From positions 1 to 44,133 of the forward strand of contig CAMOBD010000006.1 in the NCBI GenBank assembly GCA_946578345.1: DNA of 44,133 bases, given 5' to 3'. This stretch comes from an uncultured Clostridium sp. (GTDB lineage Bacteria > Bacillota > Clostridia > TANB77 > CAG-508). Shown here in pieces: positions 329 through 6,133 of the stretch (position 1 is its first letter; the number at the start of each line of letters is the position of its first letter). A program made the translations under genes and the position numbers. The notes beneath the pieces were generated by a model. The model had not been told where the DNA came from. It saw only the letters and a list, made by a program, of their open reading frames with translations, and did no database searches.

Positions 329-357
329 TTGCGATTACCGTAAATTTGTGATAAAAT
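329..357 (+). promoter_or_regulatory. sigma-A type promoter of the sigma-factor gene
   Basis: TTGCGA (329-334) and TAAAAT (352-357) are separated by exactly 17 bp. The expected start is near 364, so the transcript would begin at a 14-bp perfect palindrome (365-378). Confidence 0.6.
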
Positions 358-364
358 ACTTGCA

Positions 365-378
365 AAGGCTATAGCCTT
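365..378. promoter_or_regulatory. 14-bp perfect palindrome at the transcription start, possible operator
   Basis: AAGGCTATAGCCTT is self-complementary over all 14 bases and lies 7 bp after the -10 box, where a repressor would block initiation. It could equally form a small 5' RNA hairpin, although a loop-free perfect palindrome fits a dimeric DNA-binding protein better. Confidence 0.4.
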
Positions 379-460
379 ATAGTATTTTACGAGGAGGTAT
401 TTTAATCTTTTATTATTGCTTTTAACCAATATCAGTACAGAAAGGAGTTGCTCTATAAGT

Positions 461-1786
461 ATGAAGCTCAGTAGTGAGAAGGAACATCTTGTTTTAGACA
501 ATCAAAGATTAGTTCATTATCTAGTACAGAAGTTGGGGGTAACTCCATATTCTTCAGAGTACGAGGATATTGTTTCTATAGGTACACTTGGATTGGTAAA
601 AGCTGCTATTACTTTTGATTCATCAAAAAAGATTACTTTTGCAACATATGCTTCAAGATGTATAAATAATGAAATTTTTATGCACTATCGGAAAGCTAAC
701 AAATATGCAAATGATATTTCTATTGATGAGCCTATTGGAAATGATGGAGAAGGTAAAGAGCTTACCTTAGGAGACACAATTGCACATTCTGAGTCTGACT
801 TTGTTGAAAGAATAGTAAACAAAGATGCTTTTATTCAGTTAGTGAGTATTATTCTTAACTATCTGGAAGAAAAAACGAGACTTGCAATTCTTTATCGAAT
901 GGGAGAGGTATCACAGACAGATATTGCTGAAAAACTGAGTATTTCTCAAAGCTATGTATCAAGAATTGTAACTAGAGCTACCAACAAAATTCGAGAAGTT
1001 GCTAATCATCAAGTACATTATAAGGAGGTTTTTTCTATGGCTATAGTAGGAGATGAATACAGAATCTCTTTTTCATCCAAAGATATTAGCAAGTTTAACA
1101 AGATTTTTGCAACTCTTTTGCAAAATCTAACATCCACTGAAAAGTTACCTAATTTTAGTGTTAACTGCAACAGAGAACGGATTGTAGTTCAAATACCTGC
1201 ACATCCAGAGTCATTTTCTTTCATTGCACAAATCATTCAAGAAATTGATGATTTTAGCATGACTTTTGTTTCTGATAAAAGTGCATTACCTGCAGACAAT
1301 ACTGTCTCACAGGAAGTTGAGTCAGATGATAAAGATGAAAGCAATGATACAGTTGAAAAAATCGAATCCAGTGCAATAGTACAAAATTCTGATGTGATTT
1401 CAGATGTTGTAAATGAAACTGCAGGATTATCAGAAACAATTGAGGTCATAGAAGAAGTTGCAGCAAGCACTATGGAACAGGAACATCATGATTCGGATAC
1501 TGTTGATACAGCTAAAGAAACATTGGTTGAAAAACCGATTGTCGATGATACTGCATCTGTTTCAGAAGAATTAGATACAGTTGCTGAATCTAAAGTCGAA
1601 AAAGGCAGTCAGGTTAAACAAGTAAGAGATTATATGTTAAGTATGAGTTCTTTTACTATTAAGGATTTGAAACGTTACTTTCCTAATCTGACTACTGGAA
1701 CTATCAATAATGCTTTATATCTTGCTAAGAAAAAGGGGCTTATAACTGCTACAGGTAGAGGTGAATATCGCGTTAATAAAACTTAA
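461..1786 (+). CDS. SigK/SigE-like sigma factor with long C-terminal extension and winged-helix end
   Basis: The first ~190 residues contain sigma-70 region 2 (the segment EDIVSIGTLGLVKA, then FATYASRCINNEI) and region 4 with a helix-turn-helix (SQTDIAEKLSISQSYVSRI). The arrangement resembles sporulation sigma factors SigE/SigK. It is followed by a ~75-residue globular segment, an acidic Ser/Asp/Glu/Val-rich linker (about residues 280-385), and a C-terminal winged-helix-like domain (TIKDLKRYFPNLTTGTINNA). Typical family members end after region 4 at about 240 residues; this one has 441. ATG 461 is preferred, with AAAGGAG at 441-447; a TTG at 416 is also in frame. A second strong ribosome site (TAAGGAGG, 1021-1028) precedes an in-frame ATG at 1037, so the C-terminal half may also be made alone. 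Its target promoters are unknown. Confidence 0.8.
   Translation: MKLSSEKEHLVLDNQRLVHYLVQKLGVTPYSSEYEDIVSIGTLGLVKAAITFDSSKKITFATYASRCINNEIFMHYRKANKYANDISIDEPIGNDGEGKELTLGDTIAHSESDFVERIVNKDAFIQLVSIILNYLEEKTRLAILYRMGEVSQTDIAEKLSISQSYVSRIVTRATNKIREVANHQVHYKEVFSMAIVGDEYRISFSSKDISKFNKIFATLLQNLTSTEKLPNFSVNCNRERIVVQIPAHPESFSFIAQIIQEIDDFSMTFVSDKSALPADNTVSQEVESDDKDESNDTVEKIESSAIVQNSDVISDVVNETAGLSETIEVIEEVAASTMEQEHHDSDTVDTAKETLVEKPIVDDTASVSEELDTVAESKVEKGSQVKQVRDYMLSMSSFTIKDLKRYFPNLTTGTINNALYLAKKKGLITATGRGEYRVNKT
1021..1039 (+). promoter_or_regulatory. internal ribosome binding site and start codon inside the sigma-factor gene
   Basis: TAAGGAGG (1021-1028) lies 8 nt before ATG 1037, which is in frame with the surrounding sigma gene. 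This is a better site than the one for the annotated start. Use of it would give a 249-residue protein made of the post-sigma domain, acidic linker and winged helix. Confidence 0.55.
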
Positions 1787-1795
1787 AATACCACA

Positions 1796-1838
1796 GATAA
1801 GGACATTGCTGTTAGATTTAATTGGCAATGTCTTTATC
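1796..1838 (+). terminator. probable terminator hairpin after the sigma-factor gene
   Basis: A 14-bp stem with one G-U pair (1796-1809 with 1825-1838) and a 15-nt loop begins 9 nt after the stop codon. The tail is only weakly U-rich, so termination may be partial. Confidence 0.55.
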
Positions 1839-2048
1839 TTACAATAAAAAATAGATACACTTTGTACCTGACTTAATTTAGTAAACAAAAATATAAAATA
1901 TATTAATTCATTTATATTTAGAATATATATATAAGTTTAAAATTCAGTTTTTTGAGATTCATCACATTTAATAAAAAAAATTTCCATAAATATTTTTAAT
2001 AAAATTACTTGATTTTTATTTTAGAATCTGTTAATCTTTATATAGTTT
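1839..2048. other. AT-rich intergenic stretch
   Basis: About 210 bp of nearly pure A/T with no open frame of useful length, no convincing promoter and no hairpin I would defend. Together with the structured element at 2049-2186 and the promoter region beyond it, this fills the 676-bp gap between the sigma-factor and helicase genes. Confidence 0.5.
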
Positions 2049-2186
2049 GATTGATATTTGTATCAATCGTCAAGAGAGCCAAAAAGTTGTAAATAACTAC
2101 TTCGTTGGCACCAATAATGAAACTTTCGAACTAATAGAACAGATAGATACAAAATCAATCAGAAATAAAATCTGGTTGATTTTTTG
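2049..2186 (+). ncRNA. candidate structured RNA or attenuator ending in an intrinsic terminator
   Basis: A hairpin (GATTGATA 2049-2056 with TATCAATC 2061-2068) is followed by a GCCAA...TTGGC pairing (about 2079-2110) and a strong intrinsic terminator: 12-bp stem 2151-2162 with 2172-2183, then a T run to 2185. The first arm (GATTGAT) is also complementary to ATCAATC in the terminator stem, so it could act as an anti-terminator. The element lies 277 nt upstream of the helicase gene, which has its own promoter, so it may be an independent small RNA. It matches no riboswitch class I know. Confidence 0.35.
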
Positions 2187-2462: not shown

Positions 2463-5084
2463 ATGTTGTTACCTATTACTCAGTATAAGGATGAAATTAT
2501 CGAGGCAGTTCGTAATCATTCTTTCACAATTGTGTGTGCTGAAACAGGCTCTGGTAAATCTACACAGATTCCGCAATATTTGGCTAATTACTTTAGTCAA
2601 ATAGTTGTAACTGAACCGCGGATTATGGCAGCAAAAACTTTGGCTAAGCGTGTAGCTGAAGAAATGAGTGTAACTCTTGGTCAAGAAGTAGGATACAGAA
2701 CGGCATATGACAAATGTTCTTCTCCTACTACAAACATCTTATATTGCACCGATGGACTTCAACTTATAAGAACAATATTCAGTGAAGATAACGAAACTGA
2801 AAATGTTTTGATTATCGATGAAGTTCATGAATGGAATCTCAATATCGAAACTCTCATTGCATGGTGCAAATTCATGCACGGAAAGTGGAATACTAAAGTT
2901 GTTATTATGAGTGCAACTTTAGATACTACAAGACTTGCTCATTTCTTTGGTGAAGATGTTGTGGTGTTAAATATACCAGGAAATCTGTATGACGTCTCAT
3001 TAGAACAAAGACCCAAATATGAGTTAATTGATACCATTAAAGAAAACATTAACGATGGCAAAAATATTTTGGTCTTTGTTGCTGGTAAAAAAGAAATCCA
3101 CGGTGTGATTGAAGAACTAAGCCAAGAAAATGCAACTGTTTTGCCACTACATGGAGAAATGGACTGGGATGAACAGAAAAAATGCTTTGAGCATTTTGCT
3201 AATCCAAAAGTCATTGTAGCAACAAATGTTGCCCAGACATCCCTTACAATCCCAGATATTGATGCTGTTGTTGATAGTGGTGAAGCAAGAATATCAATTG
3301 CTGAAAATGGAATTCAGGGATTGTTTTTGAAAGACATTAGCCGGTCTGACATTGCACAACGCAAAGGACGTGCTGGTAGAACAAAATCTGGAAAGTATTT
3401 TCTATGTTCTGATACCCCTATGGAGTATCGAAATGAATATTCTGTTCCAGAAATTCAAAGAAGTATTCTGGATCGAGTTGTTTTGCAACTAGCAACAATT
3501 GGCTTAGATGCTGAGGAACTACAGTTTTACCATCAGCCTGAAATTGAAGCTATACTGACAGCCAAAAAAGAACTTACTGTCATTGGGGCTATTTCTGGTG
3601 ATAACAAAGTAACAGATCTTGGACGCAAGATAGTTAAGATACCTGTTTCTGTTCAGCTTGCTCGAATGATAGTGGAAGCTGAACAATATGGTGTTACAGA
3701 GCAAGTAATAACTATTGCATCAATTATTGAAATGGGAGGTCTTTTGACAAAAGAAAGTCATTATTATGATTTTACTCTCGAGAAAGAAAGCGATTTATTA
3801 GCTGAGCTTGATGTATGGAATTACATAAGTAAAATCGGATATATCGATTTTAAAAAGCTCGGAATTAAAAAGAAAAGTTTCTTTAAGATTAAAGAGCATA
3901 TTCAAAAGTTGAAGGAAACTTTATATGGCATTGTTGAAATGACCCATAACGATGATAGAGATGCAGTTGTAAAATCTTGTTTGAGTGGTTTGGTTTCACA
4001 TATATATGTGAGAGACTATAATAAATATCGTAGTGAAAATGGAACCGAAGTACAACTTGACAGAAACAGTTGCATATCTGACTATTCACAACTTATAGTC
4101 GGTATTCCCAAAACAATCGAATTCAAAAATCGATATGGATGGACTAGTAGCTTGAACTTAGTTGGATTTGCAAGTCAAATAGATGTAAATACACTGTTTG
4201 AGCTTGTACCCAATAGCATCATTGAAGAAACAAGTCTACGTTATTCTAGGAGCATGGATGCAGTTGAAATTACTATCAGAAGAAGCTTTGCGGGAATTAT
4301 AGTAGATACTGAAATCAGTTATGATAACACTCATCCACAATATAATGAACTTAAAGCAAAATATGAGGAAGAGTTAAAGCATTGTAGTAATTCTACGCAT
4401 GCCTCTACGAATCGACAAGAAGTGATAGTAATTGATGGTAAACAGTTTAAAGTATATTATAGTTTATTTGGTAAAGTAGAAGTATACATTGATAATGAAA
4501 CACTGTTTACGACAAATGTAAAAGAAGTTTCCCTTGACACTGGAGAGAAAGTACACTTTTGCTCAGAAGCACTAACTGGTAGAAGTGAAACCAATATGGT
4601 TGCACTAAAAAATGCCGTAGAAATGAATCGCCTAAATAGAATTCGAGAGAGGAAGAGACAGGAATACGAGTCATTAGAGATACATAACCTTGACGATATT
4701 ATTGCAAATGCTTGCAAAATTGGAAGAATCGAACTCACTATGAATAATGGAGGATATGGAAATATACCAGTTCTTGCATATGGCTACCTTGCTCTAAAGA
4801 AAAATGCGGTAACAATTAAACTTGGTGATGATGAAGAAATTGCAAATTCCAATACTCTTGAAGCTCTGCAATATTTATTTTTTAAAGAGATTCAAAAGAA
4901 ATATGGAGAAAGCAAGTTTAGTCATCAAGCCGGTAAGAAAAAGAAAGTTCTGACCGAATCCGAAATGGAGGCGAAAAAGGATTTTGATTCCCTTGTAAGG
5001 GAAGTAATGCTTAGTCTTACTGTTGACAATATATCTGAGAATCTAGAATTCCTTGAGGAATATTATCAGGAGTTAATGAAGTAA
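2463..5084 (+). CDS. DEAH-box (HrpA/HrpB-like) ATP-dependent helicase
   Basis: Superfamily 2 helicase motifs occur in order: Walker A AETGSGKST (residues 26-34), Walker B variant DEVH (about 119-122), motif III SATLD (about 150), a motif V region with VATNVAQTSLTIPDID (about 255-270) and motif VI QRKGRAGRT (about 299-307). A helicase-associated (HA2-like) region follows at about 370-480. The last ~400 residues differ from classic HrpA/HrpB and are not recognised. The family unwinds RNA or DNA 3'-5' using ATP; the substrate here is unknown. At 873 residues it is nearer HrpB than HrpA in length. CGN arginine codons are frequent, unlike genes after 6333. A consensus promoter and a strong terminator make it a single-gene unit. 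Confidence 0.85.
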   Translation: MLLPITQYKDEIIEAVRNHSFTIVCAETGSGKSTQIPQYLANYFSQIVVTEPRIMAAKTLAKRVAEEMSVTLGQEVGYRTAYDKCSSPTTNILYCTDGLQLIRTIFSEDNETENVLIIDEVHEWNLNIETLIAWCKFMHGKWNTKVVIMSATLDTTRLAHFFGEDVVVLNIPGNLYDVSLEQRPKYELIDTIKENINDGKNILVFVAGKKEIHGVIEELSQENATVLPLHGEMDWDEQKKCFEHFANPKVIVATNVAQTSLTIPDIDAVVDSGEARISIAENGIQGLFLKDISRSDIAQRKGRAGRTKSGKYFLCSDTPMEYRNEYSVPEIQRSILDRVVLQLATIGLDAEELQFYHQPEIEAILTAKKELTVIGAISGDNKVTDLGRKIVKIPVSVQLARMIVEAEQYGVTEQVITIASIIEMGGLLTKESHYYDFTLEKESDLLAELDVWNYISKIGYIDFKKLGIKKKSFFKIKEHIQKLKETLYGIVEMTHNDDRDAVVKSCLSGLVSHIYVRDYNKYRSENGTEVQLDRNSCISDYSQLIVGIPKTIEFKNRYGWTSSLNLVGFASQIDVNTLFELVPNSIIEETSLRYSRSMDAVEITIRRSFAGIIVDTEISYDNTHPQYNELKAKYEEELKHCSNSTHASTNRQEVIVIDGKQFKVYYSLFGKVEVYIDNETLFTTNVKEVSLDTGEKVHFCSEALTGRSETNMVALKNAVEMNRLNRIRERKRQEYESLEIHNLDDIIANACKIGRIELTMNNGGYGNIPVLAYGYLALKKNAVTIKLGDDEEIANSNTLEALQYLFFKEIQKKYGESKFSHQAGKKKKVLTESEMEAKKDFDSLVREVMLSLTVDNISENLEFLEEYYQELMK

Positions 5085-5743: not shown

Positions 5744-6133
5744 ATGGAAAGAAACATTACGATTACTGCAGCAAACATGTCTGAATTGGTAAGAGAAGCT
5801 TTTACGAAGTGCCTTTTCAAAGAGGGCGAGGACGCTTCCAACTATGTCAAGGTTGAAGGTATTAAGTACACTTTTGCACTTCATCCTCAGCGGTTGGAAG
5901 AACAGCGAGAACTTATAACTGCAATGATCGATGAATTGCCTGCTGAATTTAAGGAAGGTTATACTTTCCTTAGTATCAACACCAATAAAAATGGAGAGTT
6001 ATGGACAGGTGATCACATGGTTTGCGAACAGCTCATTGTTATGGCAATCGGACTAGATTTGATGTCATACTACTTTCCAAGAGAGATGTGGGTTATTCTG
6101 CCTGGTGGTGTACCTTATCTTATTGTTAAATAA
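5744..6133 (+). CDS. hypothetical 129-aa protein
   Basis: This is a soluble protein with no signal peptide or membrane helix. The N-terminal half is Glu-rich and helical (SELVREAFTKCLFKEGED); the C-terminal half has a hydrophobic core segment (VCEQLIVMAIGLDLMSYY) ending in a short beta-like tail (PGGVPYLIVK). I do not recognise the family. Codon use is clearly unlike the downstream genes, with several CGN, GAG and CTG-type codons, which suggests recent acquisition with the neighbouring helicase. It has its own promoter and terminator. Confidence 0.7.
   Translation: MERNITITAANMSELVREAFTKCLFKEGEDASNYVKVEGIKYTFALHPQRLEEQRELITAMIDELPAEFKEGYTFLSINTNKNGELWTGDHMVCEQLIVMAIGLDLMSYYFPREMWVILPGGVPYLIVK

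Follow-up and report, generated by a model that had tools for sequence, protein, structure and literature searches.

A single gene of an uncultured Clostridium sp. probably makes a gene switch together with the partner or brake of that switch. The gene occupies positions 461 to 1,786 on the forward strand of the window, the 44,133-nucleotide stretch analysed here, which corresponds to contig C6 in a genome assembly of 1.8 Mb; the near relatives of that genome are metagenome assemblies of gut Clostridia. Translation from ATG 461 would yield a sigma factor of the SigK/SigE type that carries a regulatory part at its C-terminus, and translation from ATG 1037, which has the stronger ribosome site, would yield the regulatory part alone: a globular domain, an acidic linker and a winged helix. 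Given the weaker start of the full-length protein, the short one would probably outnumber it; the two most likely assemble via the shared globular domain, and such an assembly would set the activity level of the sigma factor or its location on DNA. We give this reading, in which a gene within a gene yields a short product that joins the full-length sigma factor and tunes it, a probability of about 0.6.

The open frame encodes 441 aa from ATG 461. Sigma-70 region 2 (488–700; Pfam PF04542, Sigma70_r2, aa 10–80, E 2e-13) and region 4 (854–997; PF04545, Sigma70_r4, aa 132–179, E 1.6e-6) both score above the Pfam gathering scores, placing the product in the sigma-70 family. Among NCBIfam models, SigK and SigE fit best, with the closest sigma regions at 146 and 137 bits, yet these scores lie far below the family cut-offs (252 and 339, respectively). 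Orthology to SigK or SigE was rejected on these scores and because two paralogues in the same genome, separate SigE-like (C54) and SigK-like (C41) genes of ordinary length and without the add-on, fit those models far better. In the AlphaFold2 model, the sigma helices are followed by an approximately 80-residue beta-beta-alpha-beta-beta-alpha domain (1022–1258; strands 191–196 and 199–204, helix 212–225, strands 233–236 and 241–246, helix 251–264), which has no Pfam family, then by a predicted disordered, acidic linker (1259–1600; aa 267–380 at pLDDT ~30), whose length differs widely among relatives and is almost nil in one (L008), and finally by a C-terminal winged helix (1601–1774; aa 381–438). 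A sequence-only reading of this DNA had proposed exactly this order of SigK/SigE-like regions, globular segment, acidic linker and winged helix in one frame, and had called for structure prediction of residues 190–270; Pfam, NCBIfam and AlphaFold2 bear it out. A terminator-like inverted repeat (AAGGACATTGC ... GGCAATGTCTT; 1795–1840, forward strand) closes the unit, and DNA similarity to the genome G006 stops here.

Database searches returned little beyond the sigma regions. The nested product had no match in Pfam, and a PDB sequence search with it gave weak matches only, the best being winged-helix regulators (E 0.03). Foldseek of the globular domain against viral and PDB structures found nothing at E 0.001, no relatives of the domain were found in viral contigs, and an Rfam search of the window was without a match. 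Downstream, the window encodes an 873-aa HrpA/HrpB-like DEAH helicase that falls below both family cut-offs (2463–5084) and a 129-aa protein (5744–6133) that matches phage family phrog_26039, function unknown (E 2e-23).

The putative second start lies at the boundary between the sigma regions and the globular domain, as expected for a gene within a gene: a strong ribosome site and an in-frame start codon stand together there. The site, AAGGAGGT (1022–1029, forward strand), has the strongest anti-Shine-Dalgarno (anti-SD) pairing in its own ORF, rank 1 of 432 codon positions, and ATG 1037–1039 follows 8 nt after GGAGG (7 nt after the T of GGAGGT), the 8 nt being the distance given for the near-ideal ribosome site in the sequence-only reading. 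Among the 249 internal in-frame ATGs in the long ORFs of the window, only three, ATG 1037 included, have a strong Shine-Dalgarno (SD) site within 18 nt ahead, and in the other two the site lies 1 and 11 nt from the ATG; together with the rank, this argues that the site is more than chance. Its anti-SD energy of −11.8 compares with −8.5 for the full-length start, whose ribosome site AAAGGAG (441–447, forward strand) is spaced 13 nt from ATG 461. In predicted accessibility, the internal site is average only. The nested ORF (1037–1786, forward strand) is predicted to encode a separate protein of 249 aa. Its start falls 2–3 residues inside the first predicted strand, after the conserved V190-F191, and the fold of the short product may therefore be weakened at its edge in the structural model.

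The region ahead of the full-length start has features of its own. In the sigma gene and most of its close relatives, a promoter-like motif, a covarying hairpin and an SD-like box AGGAGGTATTTTAA follow one another within 329–405. The promoter-like element, TTGCGA-17-TAAAAT with an extended −10 (329–358, forward strand), recurs upstream of most close homologues; no other gene of the genome has it, the element being single-copy at up to 3 mismatches. The hairpin AAGGC-TATA-GCCTT (365–378, forward strand) lies near the presumed 5' end of the transcript; for four of its five pairs, at least one homologue has both sides changed, and the covariation score of the hairpin is 0.337, compared with 0.158 when shuffled (0/500). 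The conserved SD-like box GAGGAGGTATTTTAA (391–405, forward strand; alignment A4, anti-SD energy −12.9) has no start codon at the usual distance and could be an mRNA stabiliser or a ribosome standby site. At 455–457, 6 nt upstream of ATG 461, several relatives have an ATG (ATG AGT ATG) that is ATA here, which accounts for the 13-nt spacing of the full-length start; yet other relatives have ATT, CTG or GTG as the upstream start codon. Judged from these sequences, it looks as if full-length translation had been weakened repeatedly by changes of the upstream start codon.

Whether the internal start is maintained was judged from relatives searched in the genus, family and order, to which the wider class added one marginal match; all of them are metagenome assemblies. 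The collection scans used profile A3, profile A1 being too diverse for these, and the bacterial collection contributed 21 loci that carry organism names, every one of them from an uncultured metagenome assembly. Calling an SD at an anti-SD energy of −7 or lower, we found an SD with a start codon at the homologous position in 23 of 38 aligned homologues, across an order of gut Clostridia; in 21 of the 38, the site is the strongest anti-SD of its own ORF. A start codon occupies that position in all 23 homologues with the SD and in 1 of the 15 without it (Fisher p 1.6e-9, uncorrected for relatedness). When mapped on the tree, the internal-start label needs about 6 changes, fewer than any shuffle. 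Several winged-helix homologues (L090, L008, L041, L061 and L074) do without the site, which is therefore not essential for every sigma factor of this type. One genome (G174; L112, L061) has three sigma-plus-domain paralogues, all without the internal start; two of them have the winged helix.

The codons of the junction speak for selection. Nearly all homologues with the peptide KEVFSM have the junction DNA AAG GAG GTN TTY TCN ATG. Ranking the codon columns by surprisal gave no information, since six-codon amino acids dominate such a ranking, and we instead compared Lys/Glu codons pairwise in 16 representatives that share no more than 75% identity and have Lys-Glu at the junction. These codons match at 100% at the junction, compared with 70% elsewhere (saturation ~65%); the junction is always AAG-GAG, and the share of AAG and GAG in the same genes is only ~23%. 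Were there as few as five effective lineages, the chance of such a match would still be about 4e-7. The site also outlasts changes around it: in another family, L063 keeps GAGGAGGTG with its ATG, and L060, a long branch (1.5 changes per site) adjoining L092, has the peptide changed to KGAYFM, and AAAGGAG-8 nt-ATG is still there, rank 1 of 261. By these comparisons the internal start is under selection across the homologues, and the second translation start once proposed from the sequence gains strong support, being retained at the synonymous and even the non-synonymous level. The site tracks the winged helix, occurring in 18 of 22 long forms and in 5 of 16 short forms, an association suggesting that the winged helix mediates the action of the short product; four of the five short forms with the site sit among long forms on the tree.

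In the genome G104, the add-on exists as a gene in its own right. There, a sigma-plus-domain gene ends in a stop and, after a gap, is followed by a separate gene whose product corresponds to the nested protein (profile position 12 to 206) plus a second winged helix. This gene has a single ribosome site, the homologous GGAGG, which is spaced 8 nt from the homologous ATG. Separate-gene homologues were one of the checks suggested at the outset, and here the add-on has a gene of its own beside a sigma-plus-domain gene. Since the site is kept at near-saturated synonymous positions and this stand-alone gene exists, comparison makes it very likely that internal initiation is real and selected. A second sigma copy in G104 (L110:3832–5162) has its region 4 frame broken at an A-run, possibly a sequencing error, and an open add-on frame behind GAGGAGGT and a GTG; its intact paralogue L050 has neither. 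Elsewhere, a free-standing protein of three related winged helices, without sigma regions or globular domain, is encoded in G039 (L043:1522–2184) between mscL-like and ribosome-hibernation-factor-like genes. In G021, the assembly of a different species, 1388 bases (L004:1171–2558, on a contig shared with L076) are 99.93% identical to window 726–2113; this copy spans most of the sigma gene, and its flank has no real match in G000. The near-identity reflects either a recent transfer or an assembly or binning error, and a mobile-cassette reading was set aside because of the possible error and because the left flank is partly syntenic in genus g38.

Could the motif be kept for something other than a second protein? 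A pause of the ribosome where the sigma regions meet the globular domain, or the peptide KEVFSM alone, might preserve AAGGAGGT; the motif does lie at a domain boundary and KEVFSM is itself conserved. However, the amino acids do not explain why only the rarer AAG and GAG are used, the ATG is kept at start-codon distance with non-start codons in all but one of the SD-less homologues, and the G104 gene starts at the homologous ATG, so we regard this explanation as improbable. Still more remote is the idea that a sigma gene and a neighbouring regulator gene became one when a stop codon near 1020 was lost, with the ribosome site left as a relic; the sequence-only reading, too, had raised a joining of two genes by stop-codon loss. 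The site and ATG are placed where a second gene would begin, and G104 does have two genes. But the globular domain, V190-F191 upstream of the ATG included, is fused to the sigma factor in 38 of 38 homologues, distant ones and those without the internal start or without the winged helix among them, which makes stop-codon loss at ATG 1037 unlikely. The linker and winged helix have been gained and lost separately, being absent in L039, L040 and L042 and with the winged helix doubled in L084 and L096. Moreover, the G104 sigma gene retains its own copy of the domain, so that the separate gene looks derived, and a relic would decay, whereas this site is conserved at near-saturated synonymous positions.

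How the short product would act is a matter of analogy. Among known systems, phage endolysin genes make two polypeptides via in-frame internal starts, with the short form binding the long one; there, too, a strong internal ribosome site lies between the domains of one gene and the C-terminal product can join the full-length protein (1:5 in one case; PMC9430671). Endolysins are, however, phage lysis enzymes rather than transcription factors and have no sequence relation to the sigma gene. In Rpn genes within genes, a variable C-terminal domain is translated separately as RpnS, which binds and blocks full-length RpnL (PMC10327210); that pair is a nuclease toxin and its antitoxin, whereas the window gene encodes a sigma factor. 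AerR comes as long and short isoforms of one bacterial transcription regulator whose N-termini differ and whose effects are opposite, but the isoforms differ by only 41 N-terminal residues and AerR is not a sigma factor (PMC6199135). ECF41 sigma factors share a fused C-terminal part that controls activity, placed after region 4 as here, a position that is analogous only. Our gene lacks an ECF-type sigma sequence, its best models being SigK and SigE, and the available portion of the ECF41 paper credits the fused domain itself with regulation and reports neither an internal start nor a winged helix (PMC3426412).

The main rival to the oligomer partner, plausible by analogy though we hold it distinctly less probable, makes the short product a true anti-sigma factor that would bind region 2 or 4 in trans and bar the full-length protein from RNA polymerase. 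The tail and sigma factor are always encoded together, and no separate anti-sigma gene was seen adjoining the window gene; intragenic antitoxins made from internal starts exist (PMC10327210), and in ECF41 sigma factors the C-terminal part fused to them acts as an inhibitor (PMC3426412). A plain inhibitor would, however, be oddly joined to every sigma factor of the family, even in those cases that lack a separate copy; the winged helix points to DNA binding, and the AlphaFold2 model of the full-length protein (pTM 0.37) has no reliable contact between sigma and tail. The oligomer-partner model, which we prefer, rests on the endolysin and Rpn analogies and on fold matches of the globular domain model. 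A fold search ranked DCoH-type structures best (Z 6–7), with Pcc1 and the regulatory domains of aspartate kinase below; the matches as a whole lie at Z 5–7, which may reflect a common arrangement only, and the best DCoH-type match (Z 6.9, rmsd 2.8 over 77 residues) lies below the level separating relatives from common arrangements. The name DCoH denotes a dimerisation cofactor. The DCoH/pterin dehydratase Pfam families, run against 20 members of our family, gave no match at E 0.01.

Sigma factors are usually controlled by separate anti-sigma genes, by proteolysis or by cis-acting domains. The in-frame internal start is already known as a coding strategy; a search of openly licensed papers for internal starts in sigma factors or for comparable fused sigma factors did not turn up the present arrangement. 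Nested products of this kind are missed by automatic annotation, and the codon test used here, which looks for the rarer AAG-GAG conserved where synonymous positions are near saturation, could find more such genes. We consider it an even bet that a sigma family of gut Clostridia encodes its own trans-acting regulator in-gene, pairing with it via the shared uncharacterised domain, making the ratio between the two start sites the determinant of sigma activity. If true, producing a sigma regulator from the same mRNA via a second start would amount to control in a compact and testable form.
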